Below are positions 45,478 through 63,488 of a DNA stretch of 64,000 nt, one piece after another; within the stretch, counting starts at the first letter, position 1, and every line of letters starts with the position of its first letter. The translations under genes and the position numbers were made by a program. This stretch comes from an uncultured Lachnospiraceae bacterium (GTDB lineage Bacteria > Bacillota > Clostridia > Lachnospirales > Lachnospiraceae): positions 1 to 64,000 of the forward strand of contig CADAKQ010000003.1 of assembly GCA_902788555.1 (NCBI GenBank). Direction: 5' to 3'. A model generated the notes under the pieces. It was not told the DNA's origin. It searched no databases and saw nothing but the letters and a program-made list of their open reading frames with translations.

Positions 45478-45525
45478 TAAAGCAAAGGCGCTTTAGAAGA
45501 TAACACTTCTAAGGCGCCCTTTTTT
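45478..45525 (+). promoter_or_regulatory. ANTAR-type attenuator in the glnN leader
   Basis: Two exclusive folds. Hairpin 1: TAAAGC / GCTTTA with hexaloop AAAGGC (484-489; A1 and G4 as in ANTAR targets). Terminator: GGCGCTTTAGAAG (487-499) with CTTCTAAGGCGCC (506-518), loop ATAACA, then T-run. The loop and 3' arm of hairpin 1 are the 5' arm of the terminator, so protein binding to hairpin 1 would allow read-through into glnN. The ANTAR protein at 62934 is the obvious candidate. Confidence 0.75.
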
Positions 45526-45583
45526 ATTTCCATATAAAAAAATATTAAGCCGAATGTCGGTGAATGAAAGAGAGGTTTTTGCT

Positions 45584-47686
45584 ATGGCAAAGAATATTCC
45601 GGAACTGTATGGCAGCTTAGTTTTCAACGATAAGATTATGAGAGATAAGTTACCAAAGGACATCTACAAGGCATTAAAGAAGACAATTGAAAATAATACT
45701 CACCTGGAGCTTGACGTAGCCAATTCGGTTGCGGTAGCAATGAAGGAGTGGGCAGTAGAAAATGGAGCGACACATTATACTCATTGGTTCCAACCGATGA
45801 CCGGATATACTGCTGAAAAGCATGACAGCTTTATAACTCCTGTGGGTGACGGACAAATCATTATGGATTTTTCCGGTAAGGAGCTTGTCAAGGGTGAGCC
45901 TGATGCATCAAGCTTTCCGTCAGGAGGTCTTAGAGCAACCTTTGAGGCGAGAGGATATACAGCATGGGATCCTACCTCACCGGCATTTGTAAAGGACGGA
46001 ACACTTTATATACCGACAGCGTTTTGTTCATACAGCGGAGAGGCACTTGATAAGAAGACACCGCTTCTTCGTTCCATGGAGGCTCTTAATAAAGAGGCAA
46101 CAAAGATGCTTCATTTACTTGGAAGAACCGATGTAACCAATGTATCAACAACGGTAGGACCTGAGCAGGAATACTTCCTTGTTGATAAGGAGTTATATAA
46201 GCAAAGAAAGGATTTAATCTTTACCGGAAGAACCTTACTCGGAGCTATGCCTCCTAAGGGTCAGGAGATGGAGGATCATTATTTCGGAGCACTTAAGCCG
46301 AGAGTATCCGCTTTCATGCATGACCTTGATGAAGAGCTTTGGAAGCTTGGCATACCTGCTAAGACAAAGCATAATGAGGTTGCACCGGGACAGCACGAGT
46401 TGGCACCTGTATTTGATACCACCAATGTAGCTGTAGATCACAATCAGCTTACTATGGAGGTTATGAAGAAGGTTGCGGATAAGCATGGTCTTGCGTGTCT
46501 CTTACATGAGAAACCGTTTGATGGTATCAATGGTTCGGGTAAGCATAACAACTGGTCGATGTCAACCAATACAGGATTAAATCTTCTTGAACCGGGTAAG
46601 ACACCTGCGGATAACATTTCATTTTTGGTATTTTTGATGGCAGTTATAAAGGCGGTTGATGATTATGCAGACCTTATGAGAATATCCGTAGCAAGTGCGG
46701 GAAATGACCACAGACTTGGCGCAAATGAAGCACCTCCTGCAATCGTTTCCATCTTCCTTGGTGAAGAATTAAATGCAATTATTGAGGCGATAGAAAAGGA
46801 TGAGCTCTTTAACCAGCAGGACAGAGTAAGAATGGAAACAGGCGCAACTGTTTTACCGCATTTCTTTAAGGATACTACCGATAGAAACAGAACCTCACCG
46901 TTTGCATTTACGGGTAATAAATTTGAGTTCCGTATGCTTGGCTCGGAGGTTTCGGTTGCAGGACCGAATATCGTATTAAATACAGCGGTTGCAGAGGCTT
47001 TAAGCCAATTTTATGAAGAGCTTAAGGATGCAAATACGGATGATATGAAGGATGCCGTTCACCAGCTTGTTAAGAGAGCCATTGCTAAGCATAAGAAGGT
47101 TATATTTAACGGAAACGGTTATACTGATGAATGGGTTGAAGAGGCGGAAAGAAGAGGCCTTTACAACCTTAAGTCAACACCGGAAGCACTTCCTCATTTT
47201 GTTGATGATAAGAATATAGAGCTTTTCACTAAGCACGGTGTATTTACAGAGACAGAGATAAGGTCAAGATATGAAATCTTCGTAGAAAACTACTGCAAGA
47301 TTATACATATAGAGGCAAAGACCTTACAAAGCATGTTAAATCATGATGTGCTTCCTGCAATTTATTCTTACGAGGATGAGTTAAGCAATACAATTCAGTT
47401 TAAGCGTGATGCAGCCGGTATCGAGAGCAAGGCAGGCAAGACAGAGCTTGCATTTATGTCAGAGGCTTATGATAAGATTTACGAGCTGCTTGGTAAGCTT
47501 AAGGATGATACGATATCAGCCGAGGCATTAACCGAAGAAGACGTATACAAGGCATCATTTTATTATCATGATGTTATCCTTGCCGAGATGGATGAGATTC
47601 GTAAGATTGCAGATGAGGTTGAGGATAAGCTTCCTGCACATTTATTACCATATCCTACATATGAAGACTTATTGTTTTATGCTTAG
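45584..47686 (+). CDS. glnN: Glutamine synthetase type III
   Basis: A 700-residue GSIII enzyme, about 250 residues longer than GlnA, forming glutamine from glutamate, ammonia and ATP. Family blocks: LYGSLVFNDKIMRDKLPKD at the N-terminus, WFQPMTGYTAEKHDSF, FPSGGLRATFEARGYTAWD, metal-binding GPEQEYFLVD, NEVAPGQHELAP, ATP-site KPFDGINGSGKHNNWS, and DRNRTSPFAFTG with the active-site arginine. All catalytic motifs are kept, so this is probably the working glutamine synthetase of the window. Start at ATG 45584 after GAAAGAGAGG. Expression is likely set by the leader attenuator. Confidence 0.97.
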   Translation: MAKNIPELYGSLVFNDKIMRDKLPKDIYKALKKTIENNTHLELDVANSVAVAMKEWAVENGATHYTHWFQPMTGYTAEKHDSFITPVGDGQIIMDFSGKELVKGEPDASSFPSGGLRATFEARGYTAWDPTSPAFVKDGTLYIPTAFCSYSGEALDKKTPLLRSMEALNKEATKMLHLLGRTDVTNVSTTVGPEQEYFLVDKELYKQRKDLIFTGRTLLGAMPPKGQEMEDHYFGALKPRVSAFMHDLDEELWKLGIPAKTKHNEVAPGQHELAPVFDTTNVAVDHNQLTMEVMKKVADKHGLACLLHEKPFDGINGSGKHNNWSMSTNTGLNLLEPGKTPADNISFLVFLMAVIKAVDDYADLMRISVASAGNDHRLGANEAPPAIVSIFLGEELNAIIEAIEKDELFNQQDRVRMETGATVLPHFFKDTTDRNRTSPFAFTGNKFEFRMLGSEVSVAGPNIVLNTAVAEALSQFYEELKDANTDDMKDAVHQLVKRAIAKHKKVIFNGNGYTDEWVEEAERRGLYNLKSTPEALPHFVDDKNIELFTKHGVFTETEIRSRYEIFVENYCKIIHIEAKTLQSMLNHDVLPAIYSYEDELSNTIQFKRDAAGIESKAGKTELAFMSEAYDKIYELLGKLKDDTISAEALTEEDVYKASFYYHDVILAEMDEIRKIADEVEDKLPAHLLPYPTYEDLLFYA

Positions 47687-47777
47687 ACGAGAATATATGT
47701 AAAAGAAAATCTTGATTTGATTATTTGCGAAGAAAGGTTTCTTGGAAAGTATATTCTTGGTATGGGAGTTTAGAAAA

Positions 47778-49175
47778 ATGAGCTTTATGGATAAAAGCGA
47801 TATGGATTTAGATAAATTACATGAAGAATGCGGCGTATTTGGTATATACTCCCCTGAAGATGAGCAGGCCGCCCACACAATATACTACGGACTGAGTGCT
47901 TTGCAGCACAGAGGTCAGGAGGCCGCAGGAATGGCGGTCTGCAACACCGGGGGACCTATGTGGAATGTAAGTCAGCACAAGGGTATGGGACTTGTAAATG
48001 AAGTTTTTCATAACGATAACCTTGATAAGCTGATCGGCAATCTCGGTGTAGGTCATGTGAGATATTCGACAACCGGTGAGAGTAGCATAGAAAATGCACA
48101 GCCTCTTGTACTTAATTATTTTAAGGGTACATTGGCACTGGTTCACAACGGAAACATAACCAATACCGATACACTTAAAGAAGAGCTTAAAAAGGATGGT
48201 GCGGTATTTTACACTTCCACAGATTCAGAGGTAATTGCCTGTGAGATAGCTGTAAACAGAATTGACAGCGATTCGGTTGAGCAGGCGATAATAAAGACGG
48301 CTAAAAAGCTTAAGGGCGGTTATGCTTTGATAGTTATGAGCCCAAGAAAGCTTATAGGAGTAAGGGATCCTTTGGGACTCAAGCCCCTTTGCCTCGGTAA
48401 AAGGGGTGAAAGCTACATACTTGCTTCGGAAAGCTGTGCACTTACTTCGGTGGATGCCGAATTTGTAAGAGATATAAAACCGGGTGAGATTATAACCATT
48501 TCACCTGACGGAATAAAATCAGACCTTAGCCTGTGTCAGGAAAGACACGCGCATTGCATCTTTGAATATATATATTTTGCAAGACTTGATTCGGTTATTG
48601 ACGGAATAAATGTATATGATTCAAGGATAAATGCAGGGAAGGCTTTAGCAAGAGCCTATCCGATAGAGGCAGATCTGGTTGTAGGCGTTCCCGATTCGGG
48701 AGTTGCTGCTGCAAAGGGGTATTCGGAGGAGTCCGGGATACCGTTTGGGATAGCCTTCCACAAGAACAGCTATGTGGGAAGAACCTTCATAAAGCCTACA
48801 CAGGAGGAACGCGAGTCGGCGGTACATATGAAGCTTAGCGTTATAAAGAGTGTGGTAAAGGACAAAAGAATTGTTCTGATAGATGATTCGATTGTGCGTG
48901 GCACGACGATGGCAAATCTTATAAATATGCTGAAATCTGCCGGAGCCAAAAGTGTTCATGTAAGAATCAGCTCACCACCGTTTTTATATCCGTGCTACTA
49001 CGGAACAGACGTACCGAGCCAAAGCCAGTTAATCGCATCCAAGCACTCATCAGAGGACATAAGAAAAACCATAGGTGCAGATTCACTTGGCTATATGCGA
49101 ACCGAGGACTTTAAGGAAATGGTTGGCGACCTGCCTATATGTATGGCGTGCTTTAACAACAACTATCCTGTATAG
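47778..49175 (+). CDS. purF: Amidophosphoribosyltransferase
   Basis: A 465-residue enzyme using glutamine and PRPP to make phosphoribosylamine, first step of purine synthesis. A 17-residue propeptide precedes the nucleophile Cys in CGVFGIYS. Glutaminase part: LQHRGQEAAGMAV, GHVRYSTTG, LVHNGNITN and STDSEVIA. Phosphoribosyltransferase part: GVPDSGVAAAKGYS and VLIDDSIVRGTTM. ATG 47778 selected by position of the propeptide and GGGAG upstream. Glutamine consumer, in line with the surrounding genes. Confidence 0.96.
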   Translation: MSFMDKSDMDLDKLHEECGVFGIYSPEDEQAAHTIYYGLSALQHRGQEAAGMAVCNTGGPMWNVSQHKGMGLVNEVFHNDNLDKLIGNLGVGHVRYSTTGESSIENAQPLVLNYFKGTLALVHNGNITNTDTLKEELKKDGAVFYTSTDSEVIACEIAVNRIDSDSVEQAIIKTAKKLKGGYALIVMSPRKLIGVRDPLGLKPLCLGKRGESYILASESCALTSVDAEFVRDIKPGEIITISPDGIKSDLSLCQERHAHCIFEYIYFARLDSVIDGINVYDSRINAGKALARAYPIEADLVVGVPDSGVAAAKGYSEESGIPFGIAFHKNSYVGRTFIKPTQEERESAVHMKLSVIKSVVKDKRIVLIDDSIVRGTTMANLINMLKSAGAKSVHVRISSPPFLYPCYYGTDVPSQSQLIASKHSSEDIRKTIGADSLGYMRTEDFKEMVGDLPICMACFNNNYPV

Positions 49176-49213
49176 TAAGAAATAAAAATAACATATAATT
49201 TAAAATTTATTAC

Positions 49214-49256
49214 ATGCAAAGGCGCATCCTATCTTGATTGATATGATGCGCTTTTC
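49214..49256 (+). promoter_or_regulatory. ANTAR-type attenuator candidate in the amt leader
   Basis: ATGC / GCAT form a short stem with hexaloop AAAGGC (49218-49223), the same loop as in the glnN and pyrG leaders. It is exclusive with the stem GCGCATC (49222-49228) / GATGCGC (49245-49251), followed by TTTTC. A TATAAT at 49194 is the probable -10, but no -35 box is clear. The T-run is weaker than in the other two leaders. Hairpin element E begins in its tail. Confidence 0.6.
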
Positions 49257-49455
49257 TTGGTTTCGATGTATCAGATAAATCTATAAGCAGGTACTTTGAG
49301 AATGCCGGCACTTAATGGATTAAGACTGAAAAACATATAACGAACGAAGTGAGTTGATATGTTTTTCGGGATTAAGACATTTAGTACCGCTGCGTTCGAG
49401 AGTAGCGAGAGCGTGCCTGCGATAGATTTCATCTGATACAAGAAACCAAGAAAAG
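49251..49455 (+). repeat. Large nested hairpin element, copy E
   Basis: 205 bp before the ammonium transporter. The outer arms CTTTTCTTGGTTTC / GAAACCAAGAAAAG pair perfectly, then TGTATCAGAT / ATCTGATACA and AAATCTAT / ATAGATTT. The core is in plus orientation with GCAGGTACTTTGAGAA and GAGAGTAGCGAGAGCG. The apex is longer here, with AAAAACATAT / ATATGTTTTT. The first bases are the T-rich tail of the upstream attenuator. Confidence 0.9.
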
Positions 49456-49485
49456 ACATGAAATATAAAAAGGGAGGAATGACGT

Positions 49486-51237
49486 ATGGAAGAAATTTTA
49501 AATGCTGTAAATGATGAGATGTTTGGCCTGTGGTTTTTGGCAGGTGCCGCATTGGTATTCTGGATGCAGGCAGGCTTTGCAATGGTTGAGACAGGCTTTG
49601 CAAGAGCCAAGAATGCAGGTAACATCATTATGAAGAACCTGATGGATTTTTGTATAGGAACAGTTACATTTATCCTGCTTGGTTTCGGACTTTTCTTGGG
49701 TGAAGATGCTTTGTGCGGTTTGGTTGGTATTCCAAACTTTGATATCTTCACAAACTATGCTGACTTTGACTGGTCAGGCTTTGTATTTAACTTAGTGTTC
49801 TGTGCAACTACGGCAACCATAGTTTCAGGTGCCATGGCTGAAAGAACAAGATTTATTTCATACTGTGTATATTCGGCAGTTATCTCGGCTGTTATATATC
49901 CGGTTGAGGCTCACTGGACCTGGGGCGGCGGCTGGTTATCACAGATTGGCTTCCATGATTTTGCCGGTTCAAACTGTATTCATATGGTAGGTGGTATCTG
50001 CGCACTTGTAGGTGCTGCAATGCTTGGACCGAGAATCGGTAAATTTGAAAAGGATGAAAATGGTAAGGTAACAAAGGTCAATGCATTTCCGGGACACAAT
50101 ATCCCAATCGGTGCTTTAGGTGTATTTATCCTCTGGCTCGGATGGTACGGCTTTAACGGTGCAGCTGCAACAAGTGTACCACAGCTTGGTGATATATTTG
50201 TAACAACTACAATTGCACCTGCAGTAGCAACAGTAGTATGTATGATTTTCACTTGGATCAGATACGGCAAGCCGGATGTTTCAATGTGTCTTAATGCTTC
50301 CCTCGCCGGACTTGTTGCAATCACAGCTCCTTGTGATACAGTAGATGCTTTAGGTTCTATCATAATCGGTGCAGTATCGGGCGTGCTTGTAGTATTTGGC
50401 GTATGGTTCCTTGATTATGTGCTTCACGTTGACGACCCTGTAGGTGCGGTAGCAGTACATATGATGAATGGTATCTGGGGTACTATCGCAGTCGGTCTTT
50501 TCTCAACAAACACTGTACCGGGTTACTCAGTTGCCGATTCAGCAGGAAATGAGATGGTAGGTCTTTTCTACGGTGGCGGATTTAAGCTGCTTGGTATTCA
50601 GCTTTTAGGTATGATTTGTACTGCTGCATGGACTGCAGTTACGATATACATTACATTTGCAATTATAAGAGCAACTCTTGGTCTTCGTGCAAGCAAAGAA
50701 GAGGAAATCAAAGGTCTTGACCTTACTGAGCATGGTCTTACAAGTGCTTATGCAGGCTTTGAATTTGCTCCGACCGGTATCTCAGATACCTCTGATCTTG
50801 ACGACTACGAGATGATAGGCAGTGTTCCTATGGATGAAGCGGTACCGGCAGCGGTTAAGACTTCTGATATACCTAATGAGCATAAGATTACCAAGGTTGA
50901 AATTATCCTTAAACAGGAGCGTTTTGAGAAGTTAAAGAAAGCGATGAACAATATCGGTGTAACCGGTATGACCGTAACTCAGGTTCTTGGCTGTGGTGTA
51001 CAGAACGGTGCACCGGAATACTACCGTGGAGTTAAGATGGAGATGTCGCTCTTACCTAAAGTTCAGGTTGAAATGGTAGTTTCCAAAGTTCCTGTTATGG
51101 ATGTTATTAACACTGCACGTAAGGTGCTTTACACAGGCCATATCGGCGATGGTAAAATCTTCGTATACGATGTGGAAAATGTAGTTAAGGTAAGAACCGG
51201 CGAGACCGGATACGATGCACTACAGAGTGACAATTAA
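49486..51237 (+). CDS. amtB: Ammonium transporter fused to a PII (GlnK) domain
   Basis: 583 residues. Residues 1-410 form an Amt channel with eleven helices (FWMQAGFAMVETGFARAKN; HWTWGGGWL; DFAGSNCIHMVGG; LWLGWYGFNG; HMMNGIWGTIAVGLF). A linker leads to a PII domain from about 467 (HKITKVEIILKQERFEKL), with T-loop EYYRGVKMEMSLLPKVQVE and the C-loop TGHIGDGKIFVYDVEN. PII normally plugs the Amt pore when nitrogen is plentiful; fusion makes this internal. The position of the uridylylated Tyr51 is Met here, so control is probably by nucleotide/2-oxoglutarate binding only. RBS AAGGGAGG. Confidence 0.95.
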   Translation: MEEILNAVNDEMFGLWFLAGAALVFWMQAGFAMVETGFARAKNAGNIIMKNLMDFCIGTVTFILLGFGLFLGEDALCGLVGIPNFDIFTNYADFDWSGFVFNLVFCATTATIVSGAMAERTRFISYCVYSAVISAVIYPVEAHWTWGGGWLSQIGFHDFAGSNCIHMVGGICALVGAAMLGPRIGKFEKDENGKVTKVNAFPGHNIPIGALGVFILWLGWYGFNGAAATSVPQLGDIFVTTTIAPAVATVVCMIFTWIRYGKPDVSMCLNASLAGLVAITAPCDTVDALGSIIIGAVSGVLVVFGVWFLDYVLHVDDPVGAVAVHMMNGIWGTIAVGLFSTNTVPGYSVADSAGNEMVGLFYGGGFKLLGIQLLGMICTAAWTAVTIYITFAIIRATLGLRASKEEEIKGLDLTEHGLTSAYAGFEFAPTGISDTSDLDDYEMIGSVPMDEAVPAAVKTSDIPNEHKITKVEIILKQERFEKLKKAMNNIGVTGMTVTQVLGCGVQNGAPEYYRGVKMEMSLLPKVQVEMVVSKVPVMDVINTARKVLYTGHIGDGKIFVYDVENVVKVRTGETGYDALQSDN

Positions 51238-51245
51238 AGATCACG

Positions 51246-51288
51246 GTCGGTTGGATAGAATGGTGTATGTAAGCCCTATCCAACCGAC
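51246..51288 (+). terminator. Hairpin after amt-PII
   Basis: GTCGGTTGGATAG / CTATCCAACCGAC form a perfect 13-bp stem, followed by a small TCATGC/GCATGA hairpin. No T-run, so it may protect the 3' end rather than terminate. Confidence 0.6.
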
Positions 51289-51337
51289 ATCATGCTTCGC
51301 ATGATAAAACCGTTATATATTATCAGTGGTTTAAAAT

Positions 51338-51533
51338 AAAAAAGAGAGTTGAATAATACTTTAGCATTATCAACTCTCTTAAAATGACTAATTTTTCTGT
51401 TGTCCGCCAACGGTTAGCACCATCTGTCTAACAAGAATTCAGGTTTTTCTGTTGCCTGCCAACTACCGACACATTCGTTCGGCAAGAATATCGGATTAGG
51501 GTGTTAGCCCACCTGAAACAGCACGCTGTTTCT
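51338..51533 (-). ncRNA. Candidate small RNA of about 195 nt, family unknown
   Basis: Read on the minus strand. A perfect-consensus promoter (51540-51568) leads into a transcript without a translatable gene, ending at a strong terminator (AGAGAGTTGA / TCAACTCTCT with the T-run on the minus strand, near 51338). The RNA starts with AAACAGC / GCTGTTT, then a domain closed by TTCAGGT / ACCTGAA. It has two related modules, each with GCTAAC before GTTGGC and each ending in CAACAGAAAAA. Size resembles 6S RNA, but I could not match the 6S consensus, SRP RNA or a known riboswitch. It fills the gap downstream of amt-PII. Confidence 0.72.
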
Positions 51534-51539
51534 ATTAGT

Positions 51540-51568
51540 ATTATATGATTGAGCTGATATTATGTCAA
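51540..51568 (-). promoter_or_regulatory. Perfect-consensus promoter of the small RNA
   Basis: On the minus strand: TTGACA, 17 bases, TATAAT. A nearly perfect palindrome GAAACAGC / GCTGTTTC lies at the start of the transcript and could be an operator or a 5' hairpin. Confidence 0.85.
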
Positions 51569-51670
51569 TATTTAAATATTCTTTTTATTGGAATCTTTTG
51601 TAAAAATATATAGAATTATGAAAATAATATTTAGTTTGAAACAAGTATAATATAAATGGAGGAGCATTTA

Positions 51671-52276
51671 ATGAGAAGATTTAAGTTTGTAGCTATTGTA
51701 ATTTTATGTATTGCTTTGATGTCAGGATGTGGTAATTCTGATAATGGTTCTGAAAGAGGAAAGACCACGGATAAAGAAACAGAAGTCTCATCAACAGGAG
51801 TTGAGGAAGATAAAACAGAGACGGAGGCTATAACAGAAACAGAGGAGAAAACTGAGGAAGAAATTAAAACAGAGAATAATAAAACAGAGAATAATAAAAC
51901 AGAGGAAGAGATAGAACTTTCCGGTGCGCCTAATGTGCCTCGTACAGCTGAGGTTTATGGCGCAACTGATGAAATTTTTTTAGGTGATTGGGTTTCTGAT
52001 GACGATGGGGTAAGTACAATAACAATATCTGAGGATAATCCTCAGACAGGTGGTTATTATTTGGAAATTGTTATATACAAAGCTGCATCAGGTACGGCTA
52101 ATGCCAATATTGACGGAGAAAGACTAAGTATAAATCAGGGATTTTGGGATAATGATAATTCAAGTTTTTATGGTATCGTAGAAAAAACAGATACCGGAAT
52201 ACGCCTTACAATTACTGAATCTGATTTAGGTTTTATTAAGGAAGTATATAATTACAGTAGGAAAAATGATTTGTAA
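51671..52276 (+). CDS. Predicted lipoprotein with Glu/Thr-rich linker
   Basis: 201 residues. A lipoprotein signal peptide (RFKFVAIVILCIALMSGC, Cys at the end of the lipobox) is followed by an acidic Thr/Glu/Lys linker with short repeats (TENNK twice) at about 35-85, then a globular beta-rich domain with FLGDWVSDDDG and GYYLEIVIYKAASG. The last part resembles small lipocalin-like or DUF domains of unknown role. Start at ATG 51671 behind GGAGGAG. Lgt encoded at 10592 would modify it. Confidence 0.82.
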   Translation: MRRFKFVAIVILCIALMSGCGNSDNGSERGKTTDKETEVSSTGVEEDKTETEAITETEEKTEEEIKTENNKTENNKTEEEIELSGAPNVPRTAEVYGATDEIFLGDWVSDDDGVSTITISEDNPQTGGYYLEIVIYKAASGTANANIDGERLSINQGFWDNDNSSFYGIVEKTDTGIRLTITESDLGFIKEVYNYSRKNDL

Positions 52277-52347
52277 AAGGTTTATCATAGGTCGTGTATA
52301 TTAGAAAAGTATGTATTAATATAACAGAAATTTTAGGGGTAAGGTAA

Positions 52348-52404: not shown

Positions 52405-52425
52405 GAATGCTAGGAGGTAACGAAA

Positions 52426-52746: not shown

Positions 52747-52798
52747 AATTTTGTGACATTGTAAAAGAGTACCTTTTGAAAAGGTATAATAATGAATA

Positions 52799-53190: not shown

Positions 53191-53219
53191 TTGACATTTT
53201 CCTACCAAACAATTAATAT
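53191..53219 (+). promoter_or_regulatory. Promoter for pyrG
   Basis: TTGACA, 17 bases, TAATAT. Transcription would start near 53226, a few bases before the attenuator, as at glnN. Confidence 0.82.
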
Positions 53220-53229
53220 ATTTAGAGAT

Positions 53230-53273
53230 GAAGCAAAGGCGCTTCGAGTTTAACACTCGAAGTGCCTTTTTTT
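53230..53273 (+). promoter_or_regulatory. ANTAR-type attenuator in the pyrG leader
   Basis: Hairpin 1: GAAGC / GCTTC with hexaloop AAAGGC (53235-53240). Terminator: GGCGCTTCGAG (53238-53248) / CTCGAAGTGCC (53256-53266), then seven T. The two folds exclude each other. Fourteen bases (AAGCAAAGGCGCTT) are identical to the glnN leader, and the distance to the -10 box is almost the same. It is unlike the initiation-coupled pyrG attenuator of Bacillus. Confidence 0.75.
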
Positions 53274-53296
53274 GTGCGAAACTGAGACATGCAGAT

Positions 53297-53352
53297 AAGT
53301 TTTTATGATTACCTATGCGTGCTTGCACGCAATAGGTAAAGAATAAAAACTT
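53297..53352 (+). other. Long hairpin in the pyrG leader
   Basis: AAGTTTTTAT / ATAAAAACTT closes an inner ACCTATGCGTG / CACGCAATAGGT stem. A small ACGAC/GTCGT hairpin follows. Lies between the attenuator and the tandem repeats; possible mRNA-stabilising structure. Confidence 0.6.
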
Positions 53353-53371
53353 AGATATACGACGAAGTCGT

Positions 53372-53491
53372 ATCACCGAGCCGACAGGCGAGGTGTAGCA
53401 TATCGAAAGATAAATCACCGAGCCGACAGGCGAGGTGTAGCATGTCGAAAGATAAATCACCGAGCCGATAGGCGAGGTGTACATGTCGTAG
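53372..53491 (+). repeat. Three tandem 42-bp hairpin repeats before pyrG
   Basis: Units at 53372-53413, 53414-53455 and a shorter third at 53456-53491. Each contains CACCGAGCCGACAGGCGAGG, which folds on itself (CACC/GGTG, GCC/GGC), followed by a TCGAAAGAT spacer in the first two. There are no unique spacers, so this is not a CRISPR array. It lies in the transcribed leader of pyrG. Confidence 0.85.
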
Positions 53492-53517: not shown

Positions 53518-55116
53518 ATGGTTAAGTATGTATTTGTAACAGGTGGAGTTGTGTCGGGACTGGGTAAAGGTATCACCGCTGCCTCGCTTGGAAGACTCCT
53601 CAAGGCAAGAGGATACAGGGTTACAATGCAGAAGTTTGACCCTTACATCAATGTTGATCCCGGAACTATGAATCCTATACAGCATGGTGAAGTTTTCGTA
53701 ACGGATGACGGAACGGAGACAGACCTTGACTTAGGACATTACGAAAGATTCATAAATGAAAGTCTCAATCATAATTCCAATATTACAACAGGAAAAATAT
53801 ACTGGTCGGTCTTAAATAAGGAAAGACGCGGAGAATACGGCGGCGGTACGGTTCAGGTTATCCCGCATATTACCAATGAGATAAAGGACCACATTTATAC
53901 GGATAACAATGATGATTATACAATCTCTATTATTGAGGTCGGCGGCACGGTGGGAGATATAGAGAGCCAGCCGTTTCTTGAAGCCATAAGGCAGTTTCAG
54001 GCTGAGGTGGGAAGAGAAAATGCGATTATGATTCAGGTTACGCTTATCCCATATCTTAAGGCTTCGGGGGAAATGAAGACCAAGCCGACACAGGCAAGTG
54101 TCAAGGCACTTCAGAGTATGGGTATATGGCCGGACATTCTGGTATGTCGTTCGGATTATCCGATAGATGACAATATGCGTGAAAAGATTGCGTTATTCTG
54201 TAATGTAAAGAAAGAGCATGTTTTACAGAATCTTGATGCACCTTCGCTTTACGAGGTTCCGCTTATGTTGGAAAAGGAAAAGCTTGCACAGGCTGTCTGT
54301 GAATGTCTTAAGCTTCCTTGTCCGGAGCCTGACCTTGATAAGTGGAAGGATATGGTTTCAAGATTAAATCATCCGAACAATAAGGTTACTATATCCTTGG
54401 TTGGAAAATATGTTGCACTTCATGATGCGTACTTAAGTGTGGCGGAAGCATTGAAACATGCGGGCATAGCCAATCATGCTGAAGTAAATATAAGATGGAT
54501 AGATGCTGAAAAGCTTACGAGTGAAAATATAGAAGAATTCCTTCACGACACAGACGGAATACTTGTTCCGGGAGGCTTTGGTCCGAGAGGAACGGAAGGA
54601 AAGATACTTGCCATAAGGTATGCAAGAGAAAAAAATATTCCATACCTTGGCATATGCCTTGGAATGCAGCTTGCGATTATTGAATTTGCAAGAAATGTAA
54701 TAGGCATAAAGGATGCTGCAAGCATTGAGCTTGAGCCTGATACGAAAAATCCGGTTATAGCTCTTATGCCGGAGCAAAACGGAGTAGTAAATATCGGAGG
54801 CACCTTAAGGCTTGGTGCATATCCTTGTGTACTAAAGGAAGGAACAAGGGCAGCGAAGCTGTACGGTAAGCTTGATATATCGGAGAGACACAGACATAGA
54901 TATGAAGTAAATAATGACTACAGAGAAAAGCTTACCGAAAACGGCATGATACTTTCAGGACTATCACCTGACGGCAGGATAGTAGAAATGATAGAGCTAA
55001 AAGATCATCCTTACTTTGTGGCAACTCAGGCACATCCCGAGTTCAAATCACGACCGGATGATCCACACCCATTATTCTATGGACTAATTGAAGCTGCACT
55101 AACACACCGAACATAA
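53518..55116 (+). CDS. pyrG: CTP synthase (glutamine hydrolysing)
   Basis: A 532-residue enzyme aminating UTP to CTP. The N-terminal synthetase domain starts [20 protein letters not shown] (P-loop) and contains [30 protein letters not shown] and CRSDYPI. The C-terminal class I glutaminase has [30 protein letters not shown] with nucleophile Cys, RHRHRYEVN and THPEF-like [21 protein letters not shown]. Uses glutamine, and its leader shares the attenuator with glnN. Confidence 0.98.
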
Positions 55117-55204: not shown

Positions 55205-55398
55205 TGGCTTACGAAGCTTGGATAAATCCATATGCAGGTACTTTGAACACGTCGGTACTTAGCGAATTGGATGACGATTATAATCAACTTTACGAAGTAA
55301 GAAGTTGATTATAATTGGCATCCAAAGAGCTTAGAACCGCTACGTGTGAGAGTAGCGAGAGCGTGCCTGCGATGGATTTAATCCAAGCTCGTAAGCCA
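55205..55398 (+). repeat. Large nested hairpin element, copy F
   Basis: 194 bp between pyrG and gltB, filling most of a 305-base gap. The outer arms TGGCTTACGA / TCGTAAGCCA, then GCTTGGAT / ATCCAAGC and AAATCCAT / ATGGATTT pair fully. The core is in plus orientation (GCAGGTACTTTGAACACG, GAGAGTAGCGAGAGCG). The apex hairpin has TTATAATCAACTT / AAGTTGATTATAA. A weak AAACTG/CAGTTT terminator for pyrG lies upstream at about 55117. Confidence 0.92.
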
Positions 55399-58400: not shown

Positions 58401-59954
58401 TTGGCACAGCTTATATATGATTTAAAGAATGCAAATAAAAATGCAAGAATATCTGTTAAGCTTGTTTCGGAAGCCGGTGTAGGAACTGTTGCAGCCGGTG
58501 TTGCCAAAGCGGGCGCTCAGGTAATCCTTGTGTCCGGCTATGACGGAGGAACGGGTGCTGCGCCTCTTAGTTCCATTCACAATGCAGGACTTCCTTGGGA
58601 GCTTGGTCTTGCAGAGACACATCAGACACTGCTTTTAAACGGACTGCGTAATCAGGTGGTTATCGAGACGGACGGTAAGCTTATGAGCGGAAGAGATGTT
58701 GCTATAGCATGTCTGCTTGGAGCAGAGGAATTCGGATTTGCAACAGCACCGCTTGTAACTCTCGGCTGTGTTATGATGAGGGTTTGTAATCTGGATACCT
58801 GTCCTATGGGTGTTGCGACTCAGAATCCAAAGCTTCGTGAGAGATTTATCGGCAAGGCAGAGTATGTTGAAAACTTTATGAGATTTATAGCAAGAGAGCT
58901 TAGAGAATACATGGCTAAGCTTGGTGTAAGAACCATAGATGAAATGGTCGGAAGAACAGACCTTCTTAAGAAAAAGGATCATTTAAGCGAGAAGGAGGAG
59001 AAGATTGATTTAAGCAAGATTATAGTTAATCTTTCGGATATAGATCATGAGTTAATGACCTTCCATGCAGATAAGGCATATGACTTTAAGCTTGAGGATA
59101 CAAAGGATGAAAAGCTCCTGCTTGATAAGAAGCTTCAGACAGCAATTAAAAAGGGAACGAACATAAAGCTTGAAACCAAGCTTACCAATATTGACAGAAC
59201 CTTTGGTACGCTTATCGGTGCGGAGATTACAAGAAATCATCCGGACGGACTTGATGATGATACCATAGTTTTAGATTGTAAGGGCGCAGGCGGTCAGAGC
59301 TTCGGTGCATTTATCCCTAAGGGACTTACGATTAACCTTACCGGTGACAGCAATGATTATTTCGGTAAGGGATTATCAGGTGGAAAGCTTATTGTAAAAG
59401 CACCTAAGGAGGCTGCTTACAATTCGGAGGAAAATATAATTATCGGAAATGTAGCGCTTTACGGTGCAACCTCGGGAAAGGCATTTATAGCGGGTATGGC
59501 AGGTGAGAGATTCTGCGTAAGAAATTCCGGTGCAACTACCGTAGTTGAGGGTGTCGGTGAGCACGGCTGTGAATATATGACAGGCGGTGTTGCGGTAATC
59601 TTAGGTCCTACCGGAAAGAACTTTGCCGCAGGTATGAGCGGCGGAGTGGCATATGTTTTGGATGAGCATAACAGCCTATATAAGAATTTAAATAAGCAGC
59701 TTGTTATAACCGAAAAGCTTGACAGTAAGATTGACCGGGAGGAGCTTAAGGCCTTGATAGAGGAACACGTTAAGGCAACGGGTTCAAAGAAAGGTCAGGA
59801 TATAATAGATAATTTTGATGATTACATTCCAAAATTTAAAAAGATTATAGCAGGTGATTACAAACAGATGTTGAGACTTACCGCTAAGTATGAGGAACAG
59901 GGACTTAGCAGGGAAAAGGCACAGATAGAAGCCTTTTCTGAGTTTATGAATTAG
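55422..59954 (+). CDS. gltB: Glutamate synthase large subunit
   Basis: A 1510-residue GOGAT alpha subunit making two glutamates from glutamine and 2-oxoglutarate. Order: a short propeptide ending before Cys18 of CGIGAIVNI (glutaminase nucleophile), class II amidotransferase (RFSTNTNPSWERAHPNRFI), central domain, FMN/synthase barrel (GGESDERLAS, KPGEGGHLPGKKVYPWIAK, GYDGGTGAAPLSS), the 3Fe-4S cysteines in TLGCVMMRVCNLDTCPMGVA, and the C-terminal GXGXG beta-helix (GLSGGKLIVKAP). Complete. Followed after 16 bases by gltD. Confidence 0.98.
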   Translation: MNIQKNGLYNQEFEHDNCGIGAIVNINGVKSHDVVKDALSIVENLEHRAGKDAEGKTGDGVGILTQISHKFFKKICKEINIEIGNEREYAVGMFFFPQNELKRSQAKKMFEIIVAKDKLDFLGWREVDIVPEVLGSRARECMPSIYQAFIKRPDTPLTDLEFDRKLYVIRREFEQSNDNTYVPSLSCRTIVYKGMFLVGQLRTFFKDLQDEDYDSAIAMVHSRFSTNTNPSWERAHPNRFIVHNGEINTIKGNADKMLAREETMHSDHFSADDMTKVLPVISQSGSDSAMLDNTLEFLVMSGMDLPLAAMIMIPEPWAHNDTLTQEERDFYQYYATMLEPWDGPASILFSDGDVMGAILDRNGLRPSRYYVMDDGRLILSSEVGVLSLDERHILKKERLHPGKMLLVDTINKVILSDEEIKEKYAKKEPYGEWLDSSLLELHDIKIPNEKVISYTNEERQRLQKAFGYSYEDYQEGIRNMALNGAEAIGAMGVDTPIAVLSEEYQPLFYYFKQLFAQVTNPPIDAEREKIVTSTTVYVGKNGNLLEEKPENCQVLKIHNPILTDLDLLKIEKMNKPGFKVAKVSTLYYKSTPMKRVIDHLFVEVDKAYKEGANILILSDRGVDENHVAIPSLLAVAAVHKYLVQTKKCTAMSLILESGEPRQVHHFATLLGFGACAVNPYLAHSSIQELIDEGRLDKDYYAAVNDYDDAVLHGIVKIASKMGISTIQSYQGSKIFEAIGISKEVIDEYFTGTVSRVGGITLDDIAKRVDKEHSKAFDPLGLNSDLTLSSVGRHKMRSQGEAHRYNPQTIHMLQTATREGNYDKFKQYTSMVDSEKTGYLRSLIDFNYPESGIPIEEVEPEDEIVKRFKTGAMSYGSISEEAHEALAVAMNHLHGKSNSGEGGESDERLASAGTSHDRSSAIKQVASGRFGVTSKYLVSAREIQIKMAQGAKPGEGGHLPGKKVYPWIAKTRHSTPGVSLISPPPHHDIYSIEDLAQLIYDLKNANKNARISVKLVSEAGVGTVAAGVAKAGAQVILVSGYDGGTGAAPLSSIHNAGLPWELGLAETHQTLLLNGLRNQVVIETDGKLMSGRDVAIACLLGAEEFGFATAPLVTLGCVMMRVCNLDTCPMGVATQNPKLRERFIGKAEYVENFMRFIARELREYMAKLGVRTIDEMVGRTDLLKKKDHLSEKEEKIDLSKIIVNLSDIDHELMTFHADKAYDFKLEDTKDEKLLLDKKLQTAIKKGTNIKLETKLTNIDRTFGTLIGAEITRNHPDGLDDDTIVLDCKGAGGQSFGAFIPKGLTINLTGDSNDYFGKGLSGGKLIVKAPKEAAYNSEENIIIGNVALYGATSGKAFIAGMAGERFCVRNSGATTVVEGVGEHGCEYMTGGVAVILGPTGKNFAAGMSGGVAYVLDEHNSLYKNLNKQLVITEKLDSKIDREELKALIEEHVKATGSKKGQDIIDNFDDYIPKFKKIIAGDYKQMLRLTAKYEEQGLSREKAQIEAFSEFMN

Positions 59955-59970
59955 GAAGGAGGATAAGAAT

Positions 59971-61455
59971 ATGGGTAAAGCAACAGGATTTATGGATTTT
60001 GAAAGAGTTGACGGACCTGTGGTTACAGAAAAAGAGCGTATAGCTAATTTTGAAGAATTCCACAAGCTTCTTCCTTCCGAGGAACAGTGTAAGCAGGCAG
60101 GGAGATGTATGGATTGCGGCGTGCCGTTTTGTCAGGCGGGAGTTATGATATCCGGTATGGCATCGGGCTGTCCGCTTCATAACCTCGTTCCGGAGATGAA
60201 CGATATGATATATCAGGGTAACTGGGAGGAGGCTTATAAAAGGCTTGCAAAGACTCACAGCTTTCCTGAATTTACATCAAGGGTATGTCCTGCACTTTGT
60301 GAGGCGGCTTGTACCTGCGGACTTCATACCAAGCCTGTATCGACCAAGGAAAATGAACGTTCGGTCATAGAATATGCTTATGAAAACGGATTGGTGGAAG
60401 AAGCCGCTCCTTCGGTGAGAACCGGAAAGACAGTTGCCATAGTCGGAAGCGGACCTTCGGGACTTGCGGCAGCACAGCTTCTTAATAAGAGAGGACATAA
60501 AGTCACTGTATATGAAAGAAGTGACAGGGTAGGCGGATTACTCAGGTACGGCATACCAAATATGAAGCTTGATAAAAAGATTATAGACAGAAGAATAAAA
60601 TTAATGGAAGAGGCAGGTATTGAATTTATATGCAATGCCAATGTAGGCGTTGATGTAAAGCCTTCTGAACTTGAGAAAAAGTATGACAGGGTTATCCTTG
60701 CCTGCGGTGCTTCAAATCCACGTAATATAAATGCACCGGGCAGAGATGCAGAGGGGATATATTTTGCGGTTGATTTCCTAAAGCAGGTGACCAAGAGTCT
60801 GCTTGACAGTGATTTCAAGAAATTCCCGTATGAGCTTGCCAAGGATAAAAATGTCATAGTAATAGGCGGTGGAGATACCGGTAATGACTGTGTCGGAACA
60901 TCTATACGACTTGGCGCAAAGAGTGTTATCCAGCTAGAAATGATGCCTAAAGCACCGGATACACGTACCGAAAGTAATCCGTGGCCTGAATGGCCGAGAG
61001 TCTGCAAGACGGACTATGGTCAGGAGGAGGCTATATATAAATTTGGTCATGATCCGAGACTTTACTGCACAACCGTTTCGGAATTTATAAAAAATAATAA
61101 GGGTAAGCTTAAGGCTGTTAAGACGGTTTCACTTAAGACGGTTTTTGATAAAAAGGCAGGAAGATACAATATGGTTCCTGTGGAAGGAAGTGAGAAGGAG
61201 CTTCCTTGCGAGCTTTTATTAATTGCAGCAGGATTTTTAGGAAGTGAACTTTACGTGACCGAGGGTTTTGGTGTAGAATGTGATGGTAGAACCAATGTAA
61301 AAACTCTTGCCGGCTCATACAAGACAAGCAAAGATAAGATTTATACTGCAGGTGATATGCACAGAGGACAGTCTCTTGTTGTATGGGCAATCGCAGAAGG
61401 AAGAGCCGCTGCACGAGAGGTCGATGAATCCCTCATGGGTTACACGAATCTTTGA
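59971..61455 (+). CDS. gltD: Glutamate synthase small subunit
   Basis: 494 residues. Passes electrons from NADPH to GltB. The N-terminal cysteine-rich domain for two 4Fe-4S clusters reads CMDCGVPFCQ, GCPLHNLVPE and CPALCEAACTCG. FAD-binding AIVGSGPSGLAAAQLL and VGGLLRYGIPNMKLDKKI are followed by the NADPH site VIGGGDTGNDCVGTSIRLG and TAGDMHRGQSLVVWAI. RBS GAAGGAGG; co-transcribed with gltB. Confidence 0.98.
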   Translation: MGKATGFMDFERVDGPVVTEKERIANFEEFHKLLPSEEQCKQAGRCMDCGVPFCQAGVMISGMASGCPLHNLVPEMNDMIYQGNWEEAYKRLAKTHSFPEFTSRVCPALCEAACTCGLHTKPVSTKENERSVIEYAYENGLVEEAAPSVRTGKTVAIVGSGPSGLAAAQLLNKRGHKVTVYERSDRVGGLLRYGIPNMKLDKKIIDRRIKLMEEAGIEFICNANVGVDVKPSELEKKYDRVILACGASNPRNINAPGRDAEGIYFAVDFLKQVTKSLLDSDFKKFPYELAKDKNVIVIGGGDTGNDCVGTSIRLGAKSVIQLEMMPKAPDTRTESNPWPEWPRVCKTDYGQEEAIYKFGHDPRLYCTTVSEFIKNNKGKLKAVKTVSLKTVFDKKAGRYNMVPVEGSEKELPCELLLIAAGFLGSELYVTEGFGVECDGRTNVKTLAGSYKTSKDKIYTAGDMHRGQSLVVWAIAEGRAAAREVDESLMGYTNL

Positions 61456-61484
61456 TACTATTTGAAAAGCCAATAAACTTTATA

Positions 61485-61622
61485 GTTGATTATATATGAC
61501 TATTTCATAAGCAAACCGTTTTTTTACGTCGGTACTTAACGAGGTATTGTCGAGCTTAGTACCGTTACGTAAAAAACCGAGCGAGAGCATGTTTGCGATG
61601 AAATAAGTCATATGGAATCAAC
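61485..61622 (+). repeat. Large nested hairpin element, copy G
   Basis: 138 bp between gltD and the glnA-like gene. The outer arms GTTGATTATATATGAC / GTCATATGGAATCAAC pair with two mismatches, then TATTTCAT / ATGAAATA. The core is plus-oriented but diverged: ACGTCGGTACTTAACGAG / GAGCTTAGTACCGTTACG, and CCGAGCGAGAGCATG in place of the usual right-hand motif. Confidence 0.88.
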
Positions 61623-61688
61623 AAAAGAATCTTGTGCAAATAGTATTAAAGATTCGTAAGATAATGTTTGATATGGAAAGGAGATATT

Positions 61689-62909
61689 ATGCGTACTAAA
61701 CAGGAAATTATGGAAATGATAGAGGAAGAGGATATTGAGTTTATCAGGCTTCAGTTTACTGATCCGCTCGGCAATTTAAAAAATGTTGCGGTGACGGCTC
61801 GCAAGCTTGAAAAGGTTTTGGATAATCAGTATGCCTTTGAAAATGAAAAGATTTTTAAGATATATGAGGATGAGCTTTATCTTAAGCCTGATCTTGATAC
61901 CTTTGCGATTCTTCCGTGGAGACCGCAGCAAAGCGGTGTCGCAAGACTCATATGTGATGTATGCGACGGTGATGGTAACGAGATTGATTTCAGTCCGAGA
62001 ACCATTTTAAAGAATACTATCAAAAAGGCAAAGGATATGGGCTATGATTTTTATATTAATCCTGAGTGTGAATTTTTCCTTTTCCATACAGATGAGAACG
62101 GACAGCCTACAACCGTTTCACATGAACATGCAGGACTTATGGATGTTGGACCTGTTGACCTTGGTGAAAATGCAAGAAGAAACATGGTTCTTATGCTTGA
62201 GGAAATGGGCTTTAACATAAACTCCTCATATCATGAAGGTGCTTCTGCACAGCATGAGATAGATTTTGAGGAGGGGACGCCTCTTAGCATGGCGGATGAT
62301 TTGATTACATTTAAGTCCTCGGTACGTTCGGTTGCAAAGACCTTTGGACTTCATGCCACATTTATGCCTAAACCAAGGCAGAATCAGGCCGGTTCCGGTA
62401 TGCATCTTAATATATCTGTATATAAGGATGACAGAAATATTCTTATGGATTATGTAGGTGGCGATAAAGATAATCCGGGTGCATGGTTTGCAGGCGGAGT
62501 TATGAAATATGCAAAGGAAATGTGCGCCATAACTAATCCGATTGTTAATTCATATAAGAGAGATTTTAATAATAAACCTAAGCTTCACAGCAGAAAGGGA
62601 GAGGATGTGAAGCTTGAGTTTTCATTTGCTGACCCGTCAGCAAATCCTTATCTTGCATTTGCAATGTTTATAAATGCAGGTCTTAAAGGTATTGATGAAA
62701 AGCTTGTACCTGATGAAAGTCTTTCAAAGGAAGACTTACCTTCAAATCTGCTTGAGGCAGTTAAGCTGTTTAAGGAAAGCAGTGTTGCCAAGGATGCTCT
62801 GGGAGCAGACTTTGCAGAAAAGTATGCCGTATCCAAGGAAAATGAGTGGGATGAATATATGAGTCAGGTTTCAGATTGGGAGCTTCAGAAGTATCTGTAC
62901 AGAATTTAA
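61689..62909 (+). CDS. GlnA-like protein with degenerate active site
   Basis: 406 residues, clearly homologous to type I glutamine synthetase (IRLQFTDPLGNLKNV; FGLHATFMPKP; AGSGMHLN; DPSANPYLAF), but about 35-40 residues shorter than B. subtilis GlnA. Kept: metal-binding Glu126, Glu128, Glu183, Glu190 and His239. Lost: the catalytic D-G-S-S-I loop (residues 50-58 read FENEKIFKI); the whole N-R-S-x-x-x-R-I-P segment, missing between Arg291 and Val307; and the Arg before the D-P-S-A-N-P motif, which is Ser312. I infer it is not an efficient synthetase and may be a sensor. ATG 61689 chosen by AAAGGAGA upstream. The ANTAR gene follows after 24 bases. Confidence 0.9.
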   Translation: MRTKQEIMEMIEEEDIEFIRLQFTDPLGNLKNVAVTARKLEKVLDNQYAFENEKIFKIYEDELYLKPDLDTFAILPWRPQQSGVARLICDVCDGDGNEIDFSPRTILKNTIKKAKDMGYDFYINPECEFFLFHTDENGQPTTVSHEHAGLMDVGPVDLGENARRNMVLMLEEMGFNINSSYHEGASAQHEIDFEEGTPLSMADDLITFKSSVRSVAKTFGLHATFMPKPRQNQAGSGMHLNISVYKDDRNILMDYVGGDKDNPGAWFAGGVMKYAKEMCAITNPIVNSYKRDFNNKPKLHSRKGEDVKLEFSFADPSANPYLAFAMFINAGLKGIDEKLVPDESLSKEDLPSNLLEAVKLFKESSVAKDALGADFAEKYAVSKENEWDEYMSQVSDWELQKYLYRI

Positions 62910-62933
62910 GGATTGCATGAGGAGTTAAAATAA

Positions 62934-63488
62934 ATGGGCAGTATTATTATTGCATTGCCTAAACTGAATGATTCGAAGAAAATAAGTGACTTGCTTGGAA
63001 GATATGGTTTGGAAACCTTTGCTATATGCAGTGCTGCTGCAACGGTTTTATCAAATGTAAATCAGCTCGAATCGGGGGTTGTTATATGCGGACATACATT
63101 TCCGGATATGCATTCCTCTGAGCTTTTATCATATCTTCCCGATAACTTTGCTCTTGTACTTATGACATCAAGGGAAAATCTTTCGAGGTGCCCCGACGGT
63201 GTCGTGACACTTGCCATGCCCTGTAAACCGAGTGATATAGTAAATACGGTTAATATGCTTTTAGAACAGCAAAACAGGAAGATTAAAAAGAAAATCGAAG
63301 AGCAAAAGGGCAGGAAAAGAGGAGAGCATGGTAAAAACTATGTCAACAATGCAAAGCTCCTTTTGATGGAGCGTAACAATATGACGGAGCCGGAGGCGTA
63401 TCATTATATACAAAAATGCAGTATGGACTCCGGAAATACAATGGTTGAAGCCGCCCAGATGATTCTTTACATGGCGGTGGCTGATTAA
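62934..63488 (+). CDS. ANTAR-domain antitermination regulator with pseudo-receiver
   Basis: 184 residues. Residues 1-115 have a receiver-like fold, but the acidic pair is absent (IIIALPKLND) and the phospho-acceptor position in VVICGHTFPDM is Gly, not Asp. The Ser/Thr (LMTSRE) and Lys (MPCKPSD) positions remain. A helical linker (EQQNRKIKKKIEEQ) leads to an ANTAR domain at about 130-180 (NAKLLLMERNNMTEPEAYHY, then AAQMILYM), which binds twin-hairpin RNA with A1/G4 hexaloops. Ribosome site GAGGAG. Co-transcribed with the GlnA-like gene. Targets are probably the glnN, pyrG and amt leaders. Confidence 0.92.
   Translation: MGSIIIALPKLNDSKKISDLLGRYGLETFAICSAAATVLSNVNQLESGVVICGHTFPDMHSSELLSYLPDNFALVLMTSRENLSRCPDGVVTLAMPCKPSDIVNTVNMLLEQQNRKIKKKIEEQKGRKRGEHGKNYVNNAKLLLMERNNMTEPEAYHYIQKCSMDSGNTMVEAAQMILYMAVAD

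Follow-up and report, generated by a model that had tools for sequence, protein, structure and literature searches.

A one-hairpin ANTAR circuit beside a worn-out glutamine synthetase probably controls glutamine genes in Lachnospiraceae

INTRODUCTION

Lachnospiraceae rank among the main bacteria of the gut and the rumen. In the first 64,000 nucleotides of contig CADAKQ010000003.1 from an uncultured Lachnospiraceae bacterium (GenBank assembly GCA_902788555.1, 2.70 Mb, 88.7% complete; the whole 64,000-nucleotide stretch is hereafter called the window), leaders of one kind precede the glutamine synthetase gene glnN, the ammonium transporter gene amt-PII and the CTP synthase gene pyrG, and a gene for an ANTAR protein lies directly behind one for a GlnA-like protein. 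Are these leaders the targets of the ANTAR protein, and does the GlnA-like protein report glutamine to it? An initial annotation, made from the window alone, had proposed both. We followed it up in related genomes. The comparative sequence evidence supports well an ANTAR circuit acting on nitrogen and glutamine genes. Probably, in gut and rumen Lachnospiraceae, an ANTAR protein beside a worn-out glutamine synthetase switches on genes that make and use glutamine through one 5′ hairpin. We also consider it likely, with some reserve, that this one-hairpin antitermination system governs the glutamine economy as a whole, with the GlnA-like protein restraining the ANTAR protein when glutamine is plentiful. 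The best reading of the GlnA-like protein would make it a glutamine sensor; we infer RNA binding by the window's ANTAR protein, its contact with the GlnA-like protein, the loss of activity in the latter, the ligand and the direction in which the circuit responds.

RESULTS

Three leaders share a hairpin and a competing terminator

In the glnN leader, a predicted promoter read directly from the sequence (45441–45469: TTGACA at 45441–45446, a 17-nt spacer and AATACT at 45464–45469, with comparable spacing in relatives) is followed, at about +1 of the transcript, by an ANTAR-type single hairpin, TAAAGC[AAAGGC]GCTTTA (45478–45495; scan and folding), and by an intrinsic terminator whose 5′ arm starts within the hexaloop (45487–45524; folding). 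The target, glnN (45554–47686; Pfam GSIII_N and Gln-synt_C), encodes a type III glutamine synthetase (GSIII); all features are on the forward strand. The amt-PII leader has a predicted −10 element, TATAAT (49194–49199, read directly), with a weak −35, the hairpin ATGC[AAAGGC]GCAT (49214–49227) and an overlapping terminator (49218–49258), ahead of an ammonium transporter fused to a P-II domain in one protein of 583 amino acids (49486–51237; Pfam). The third target, pyrG (53518–55116; an open reading frame named CTP synthase by eye, with a 71% match to the Pfam-named CTP synthase of locus L230), lies behind a predicted promoter (53191–53219, read directly: TTGACA at 53191–53196, a 17-nt spacer and TAATAT at 53214–53219), the single hairpin GAAGC[AAAGGC]GCTTC at about +1 (53230–53245) and an overlapping terminator (53235–53273). 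Stems are 4–6 bp long, a C-G pair closes the hexaloop AAAGGC (A at position 1, G at position 4), and in each leader the terminator's 5′ arm is made up of the hexaloop and the 3′ stem arm. Folding gave −21.6, −19.7 and −23.5 kcal/mol for the terminators of glnN, amt-PII and pyrG, and −4.2, −2.2 and −6.4 kcal/mol for the respective hairpins. Since the terminators are far stabler, termination should be the default, and the hairpin must be held by something.

The leaders share a ten-base core, GCAAAGGCGC, found three times in the window (45482, 49216 and 53233), where 0.04 copies were expected and none of 100 shuffles reached three. Scan, shuffles and folding thus confirmed the initial claim of three AAAGGC hairpins overlapping the 5′ arm of a terminator. 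Genome-wide, the core matched seven times and the reversed control never; hairpin and terminator occur together in the glnN, amt-PII and pyrG leaders only, and the other four matches, with stems of 2–3 bp and no terminator, lie inside open frames of 202–617 codons. Since these four of the seven matches are non-leaders, pattern matching alone was not adopted for finding the regulon. A looser scan of the window (loop ANNGGN) returned the same three leaders and no further one. Rfam gave nothing at gathering level in the window and, between 45300 and 53700 at E ≤ 5, sub-threshold matches only, none named for ANTAR; with no usable ANTAR match there, a covariance model was built from the leaders.

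The element is conserved and accompanies the ANTAR gene

This model, R1, was built from 38 chosen leaders, promoter and terminator included. Two-sided changes were seen in 9/14 terminator pairs and 4/5 hairpin pairs of these leaders, counts reached by 0 and 3 of 500 shuffles, respectively. R1 recovered the window leaders at E-values of 1e-8, 2e-7 and 0.0027; a fourth match in the same genome (contig C52, 0.0087) was discounted, being located at the edge of a contig and having only 1 bp of stem to close its loop. The survey set comprised 200 Lachnospiraceae genomes, 175 ANTAR-positive and 25 ANTAR-negative. At E ≤ 0.01, R1 matched 154 of the 200, namely 150/175 ANTAR-positive and 4/25 ANTAR-negative genomes (3.6e-12 by Fisher's test, without a correction for kinship), which bears out the co-occurrence that the initial annotation had suggested looking for with such a model. 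The corresponding numbers were 111/175 versus 3/25 at 1e-4 and 48/175 versus 0/25 at 1e-6. The four ANTAR-negative genomes with a match are G137, G199, G129 and G186; in the first two, a contig break falls within glnA or within the ANTAR gene.

Under a strict scan for hairpin plus terminator, the element was present in 23 of the 29 glnN loci of the most similar relatives (window excluded), and in many relatives it also precedes glnA-ANTAR itself. A loop definition of AAAGGC only, which found the element in 3/40 loci around ANTAR and 2/20 control stretches, was dropped for the consensus AANGGY; the looser loop turned 5 of those 20 controls positive. The loops of 132 leaders, counted as distinct by 70 nt of sequence rather than by species and found with a search that required CAANGG[CT]G, read AAAGGC (85), AAGGGC (27), AATGGC (9), AACGGC (6), AAAGGT (3) and AAGGGT (2). 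When only A1 and G4 were fixed, AANGG[CT] was still found in 74/76 elements at loci of R1 matches. As a separate observation, loci L051 and L055 have two tandem hairpin-terminator units ahead of glnN, that is, a double attenuator.

These data bear on whether the element might be a plain start-proximal attenuator, or the DNA operator of another factor, unrelated to ANTAR. We regard this as very improbable. In the scan that fixed A1 and G4 only, A2 was present in 76/76 and G5 in 75/76 elements; the two mutually exclusive structures covary; the presence of the element tracks ANTAR; and the loop carries A1 and G4, the signature known from NasR and EutV. What speaks for such an explanation is that the element directly follows the promoter, a position open to a DNA repressor, and that the terminators are strong on their own.

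The ANTAR protein has a receiver that lacks its phospho-acceptor

The proposed antiterminator is encoded at 62934–63488, an ANTAR protein of 184 amino acids with a pseudoreceiver (Pfam ANTAR, 1.2e-14, and a structure match), and its gene is the sole ANTAR gene found in the genome. One copy is also the rule among the 175 positive genomes (170), and five have two (G038, G059, G075, G179 and G194); both second copies examined (L280 in G059 and L281 in G194) have their own GlnA. The receiver had been annotated as non-phosphorylatable, and indeed both key residues are missing: in 61 aligned sequences, window included, the phospho-acceptor Asp is kept in none (G 54, S 5, A 2) and neither is the conserved Lys (0/61).

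The predicted model (40-row alignment, mean predicted local distance difference test score (pLDDT) 88) consists of a receiver fold, a long helix and an ANTAR bundle. Foldseek retrieved RNA-bound EutV first and then Rv1626; AmiR was also found, with the AmiC–AmiR entry 1qo0 at 6.7e-06. By our own mapping from the alignment, the equivalents of EutV K149, E160 and M172 are invariant in 61/61; in the part of the EutV structure paper available, K149 and E160 contact G4 and M172 plugs the loop (PMC8934654). The Y164 equivalent is His in 47/61, and those of R168, N173, R175 and R177 are mostly Q, D, G and N/S/T.

A single hairpin is predicted to open the transcript

In 66% of the 132 leaders, the best predicted promoter ends 2–10 nt before the stem, compared with 8% for shuffled upstream sequence. 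An upstream A..G.. hexaloop hairpin, which would correspond to the P1 hairpin of known systems, was found in only 12/132 leaders, and shuffles gave a mean of 7.5 (range 2–13). With the promoter abutting the stem and no excess of upstream hairpins, the hairpin would open the transcript and P1 would be missing, the start sites being predicted ones. The order-level relatives G203 and G207 have the same single element behind a promoter; in G220 the hairpin lacks a clear abutting promoter.

This bears on the initial reading of A1 and G4 as an ANTAR signature: the loops match it, but the known in vivo target comprises two hairpins and here there is one. According to the accessible text of the original description and its commentary, two hairpins together make up the ANTAR target (Ramesh 2012, PMC3369931; PMC3369936). 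The EutV structure paper, in the part available, reduces the minimal binding motif to one hexaloop and allows single-hexaloop sites where the transcribing polymerase imposes no time limit (PMC8934654). A single hairpin near +1, with no upstream P1, is a new departure from the known ANTAR mechanism.

The leaders precede genes that make and use glutamine

A reference gene was taken as the target if it lay on the same strand and started within 1000 nt of the leader; 121/132 started within 400 nt (including a LuxR-type case) and nine assigned genes started 430–862 nt behind the terminator. Assignment by tblastn left 2/132 leaders unassigned; a first version with misplaced start codons had left 20/132. 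Behind the 132 leaders are glnN (36) and glnA(-ANTAR) (35), two counts inflated by the deliberate fetching of these loci, followed by amt or amt-PII (21), pyrG (9), purF (8), asnB (6), gltB (5), carA (4) and aspS or similar (2; the second case, L353, is weak, with 32% identity). Single cases are mntP, an ATP-grasp protein, a class II amidotransferase and a LuxR-type gene followed by P-II. The names asnB, carA, mntP, ATP-grasp and amidotransferase come from Pfam (one representative each), and aspS and LuxR-type were named by eye; six reference proteins came from these loci themselves, so that asnB, carA, aspS, mntP, ATP-grasp and the class II amidotransferase each include one self-match. In all, glutamine or ammonium genes stand behind 125 of the 132 distinct leaders.

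A similar range came from 40 stretches fetched for other R1 matches, whose 35 leaders precede amt (14), purF (7), gltB (4), carA (2), asnB (2) and one each of aspS, mntP, ATP-grasp, amidotransferase, a LuxR-type gene and an unassigned gene. Leaders before gltB occur in the relatives only, and the window has the glnN leader. Apart from glnN, glnA and amt, the targets are mostly glutamine amidotransferases, and the circuit looks like a glutamine economy regulon. Locus L227 (G180, contig C4) was rejected as an amt target, having a P-II match only, behind the LuxR-type gene; there, an AAAGGC leader precedes a 249-amino-acid LuxR-type regulator (named by eye), and a P-II-like reading comes next.

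A degenerate glutamine synthetase is paired with the ANTAR gene

The proposed sensor is a degenerate type I glutamine synthetase (61668–62909; Pfam Gln-synt_N and Gln-synt_C) of 413 amino acids from TTG at 61668 or 406 from ATG at 61689. It falls below the NCBIfam GlnA cut-off (300 versus 429 bits), lacks a 16-residue flap stretch present in solved glutamine synthetases and family members, and has lost 6 of 13 tested active-site positions, the equivalents of D50, S52, E304, R316, R321 and R335 (B. subtilis numbering), substrate arginines being among the losses. This agrees with the earlier description of a GlnA homologue lacking several active-site elements directly before ANTAR. A second rumen metagenome-assembled genome (RUG14549, L282) encodes a GlnA-like protein that is 95% identical, with the same flap gap, so the gap is not a sequencing error. 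The predicted model has a mean pLDDT of 83.8. In the window lineage the protein is most likely without catalysis.

Among 61 paired GlnA proteins (window included), 42 have lost at least one of the 13 positions and 15 at least three, while 19 keep all, numbers that depend on the alignment; metal-site residues are lost in L083, L108, L110, L116 and L118. As a control, the 30 aligned GSIII sequences of the close group (window included) are all identical at 14/15 counted positions. GSIII is present in 198/200 genomes, so type I catalysis is likely dispensable.

The pairing itself is nearly constant. GlnA lies directly upstream of ANTAR in 30/30 best family loci (window included), in 60/60 further loci with gaps of 10–359 nt (26 of the genomes overlap the first set) and in 79/80 named genome loci, the remaining one being cut by a contig end. 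Among 20 loci chosen for an odd or divergent ANTAR, for some of which the ANTAR position was taken from the 200-genome survey, GlnA adjoins ANTAR in 16; the exceptions are G019, G063, G121 and, at a contig end, G126. At the order level, GlnA stands beside ANTAR in 10/13 loci; G213 and G220, but not G209, have a second ANTAR accompanied by GlnA. The congener G180 of the window species has a divergent GlnA–ANTAR pair (L236) whose GlnA is 36–37% identical, a divergence from which the pair may have been exchanged within the genus; one of the two glnN genes of G180 has a leader with the loop AATGGC.

In some genomes receiver and GlnA are missing together, and in some ANTAR is fused to CTP synthase

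In two genomes of one genus, G019 and G200, CTP synthase runs on at its C-terminus into the ANTAR domain, and G063, of another genus, has a similar PyrG–ANTAR junction at a contig edge. The fused PyrG of G019 retains the synthase and amidotransferase domains; its 585-residue frame, considered as a GlnA–ANTAR fusion, was rejected as such, being PyrG–ANTAR. The gene order pyrG-glnA-ANTAR in several relatives (L069, L125, L294, L297, L314 and L237) suggests that the fusion may stem from one deletion. In G121, ANTAR stands alone, without a receiver, and spans no more than 74 residues; three checked genus mates retain glnA and full-length ANTAR. No GlnA match turned up at E ≤ 1e-5 in G019, G063 or G121, which represent three genera (genomes 96, 89 and 97% complete, so that absence is not certain). 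Receiver and GlnA missing together is what would be expected if the receiver were the docking site of GlnA. R1 leader matches persist in all three genomes, consistent with a partner whose role is to restrain ANTAR and which ANTAR can do without.

Could the GlnA-like protein be a mere operon neighbour, an enzyme or decaying relic, with the antitermination real and its signal coming from elsewhere, such as a P-II protein or a ligand of the pseudoreceiver? The persistence of ANTAR and leader without a GlnA match in these three genomes is one argument for it; others are the 19/61 paired GlnA proteins with every tested active-site position, the P-II domain within the regulon and the 3/13 order-level ANTAR loci without an adjacent GlnA. 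We nonetheless hold it to be unlikely, given the adjacency in 79/80 named and 10/13 order-level loci, the joint absence of receiver and GlnA from G019, G063 and G121, and GlnA frames that stay intact despite lost catalytic residues. A GlnA-like partner that restrains the ANTAR protein remains our preferred reading.

The sign of the response could also be reversed, GlnA activating ANTAR as a co-antiterminator, or glutamine-bound GlnA promoting antitermination. We judge this improbable, more so than a mere neighbour. The receiver-less ANTAR of G121, kept with a glnN leader without GlnA, better suits release from inhibition; glnN and amt are genes for shortage; and NitR is described, in the accessible text, as inducing genes of glutamine synthetase and glutamate synthase (GS/GOGAT) on nitrogen limitation (PMC6316151). 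An activating GlnA would accord with the near-constant company of glnA and ANTAR where the receiver is present, and with pyrG, purF, carA and gltB, whose products consume glutamine and which plenty could induce. Restraint by GlnA is retained in what follows.

Taken across the family, the data prompt a more tentative reading, which may well be right but to which we give slightly less than even weight: glutamine synthetase would repeatedly have become a glutamine receptor for a single-hexaloop antiterminator that coordinates glutamine synthesis with the major glutamine amidotransferases, and receptor and pseudoreceiver would have been deleted together in some lineages, leaving ANTAR alone or joined to CTP synthase.

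Other features of the window

Long palindromic intergenic repeats occur at 41060–41195, 49306–49410, 55253–55375, 61530–61600 and 63504–63644, with the shared ends CGGTACTTA and AGTACCG and, in three of them, GAGAGTAGCGAGAGCGTGCCTGCGAT. These sequences stand before amt, gltB, carA and the glnA-like gene, and elsewhere; they resemble a mobile repeat, and leaders at such sites may have been displaced by them. In the repeat-rich stretch before pyrG, positions 53286–53404 have a sub-threshold match to the Rfam Clostridiales-1 RNA (28.4 bits, cut-off 48). An open reading frame of 564 amino acids (43134–44828) has a long KGAEKEPK-type repeat tract ahead of its C-terminal part.

DISCUSSION

We propose the following mechanism. 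Transcripts of glnN, amt-PII and pyrG would start almost at the 5′ edge of a hairpin with the hexaloop AANGGY. Unaided, the RNA would fold into the much stronger terminator, engulfing the hexaloop, and transcription would stop. A free ANTAR protein would grip the hexaloop and hold the hairpin until RNA polymerase has passed. The GlnA-like protein probably binds glutamine (or glutamate or a nucleotide) and, with plentiful glutamine, would hold the ANTAR protein through its pseudoreceiver; shortage would free the ANTAR protein and turn the regulon on. The first half of this scheme, already present in the initial annotation, draws on conserved leaders, covariation, co-occurrence with ANTAR and the single ANTAR gene of 170/175 genomes. 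For the GlnA-like protein as the ANTAR partner, the support is contextual, consisting of adjacency in 79/80 named loci and loss together with the receiver.

Several observations weigh against this scheme. The strict element is absent from 6 of the 29 close glnN leaders, although for two of these (G156 and G063) the model matches just upstream of glnN, so the initial expectation that close relatives keeping ANTAR would keep the hairpin had a mixed outcome. It is likewise missing from 15 of 20 stretches upstream of glnN (5 have it), taken from 18 genomes in which ANTAR has no close ortholog; 25/175 ANTAR-positive genomes have no R1 match; and 9 of the 40 stretches fetched for R1 matches show no element under the scan. 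In the window, no such leader was found before its own glnA-like/ANTAR, gltB, purF or carA genes. Because both the strict scans and the seed alignment took in leaders chosen for having hairpin and terminator, the pairing percentages are partly circular; the co-occurrence counts of leader and ANTAR ignore phylogeny, and the R1 E-values are rough. On the partner side, catalysis is not lost as a general rule, 19 GlnA proteins being intact at all 13 positions; GlnA is not indispensable, since ANTAR and a leader match are kept without it in G019, G063 and G121; and the order-level loci L268, L270 and L273 encode full-length ANTAR proteins with no GlnA adjacent. Finally, in the accessible text, EutV needs both hairpins for antitermination in vivo (PMC8934654), whereas here one would suffice.

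These data suggest that one ANTAR gene serves as a hub of nitrogen control at the RNA level in Lachnospiraceae. The one-hairpin leaders bear on a question that the EutV–RNA structure raised, namely that one hexaloop makes a binding motif yet two are needed for antitermination. A GlnA that stays paired with a regulator even as its catalytic residues disappear would offer a clear natural example of an enzyme turning into a receptor, and the PyrG–ANTAR fusions give a second handle on this idea. CTP synthase is itself a glutamine enzyme and a member of the regulon. Titles and the beginnings of abstracts, with subscription papers thinly covered and part of the search weak because the word ANTAR mostly matched Antarctic, contained no one-hairpin ANTAR terminator leader, decayed GlnA partner or PyrG–ANTAR fusion.

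Like NitR, the regulator described here is an ANTAR protein tied to glutamine synthetase genes, and its gene adjoins a glutamine synthetase gene, as the NitR gene reportedly does. In the available passages of papers citing Stutz 2007 and Fierro-Monti 1992, NitR of Clostridium saccharobutylicum is an ANTAR antiterminator of GS/GOGAT genes, induced on nitrogen limitation (PMC6316151, PMC4676874), and a like role is suggested for the C. thermocellum ANTAR gene Clo1313_2030 in the GOGAT gene cluster Clo1313_2030–2036 (PMC4676874). To that extent, ANTAR control of GS/GOGAT is already known and the present system is a variant. As far as these citing papers describe NitR, which does not extend to leader anatomy, the differences are a paired GlnA without catalytic residues in the window lineage, a single 5′-terminal hairpin as target, PyrG–ANTAR fusions and a wider regulon, which adds amt-PII and pyrG and, in relatives, purF, asnB and carA. 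The leaders that Ramesh 2012 placed before genes for P-II, ammonium transporters and glutamate/glutamine synthases in Desulfotomaculum and others share nitrogen targets with ours but, in the part of that paper available, came from a two-hairpin model (PMC3369931); here there is one hairpin.

With EutV/EutW of Enterococcus, the system shares the ANTAR fold, the A1/G4 hexaloop, the hairpin overlapping a terminator and the K149, E160 and M172 equivalents. Unlike these dual-hexaloop regulators, it has no P1 hairpin and its receiver lacks the phospho-acceptor; the Y164 equivalent is mostly His, and most sequences have other residues where EutV has R168, N173, R175 and R177.

In AmiC–AmiR (PMC3369936) and NasS–NasT (PMC3795266), as far as the accessible text goes, a ligand-binding partner holds the ANTAR protein. 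Here too, as in AmiC–AmiR, a pseudoreceiver ANTAR protein lies beside a proposed ligand-binding partner, for which adjacency and joint loss are seen from the genes alone; unlike in either pair, the proposed partner is a relative of glutamine synthetase. That a glutamine synthetase may report nitrogen state to a regulator has a precedent in Bacillus, where, according to the available text, GlnA does so to TnrA by contact (PMC6316151). The likeness is one of idea only: the circuit proposed here would act by RNA antitermination instead of DNA binding, through an unrelated regulator and, in the window, with a putative pseudoenzyme as the sensor.

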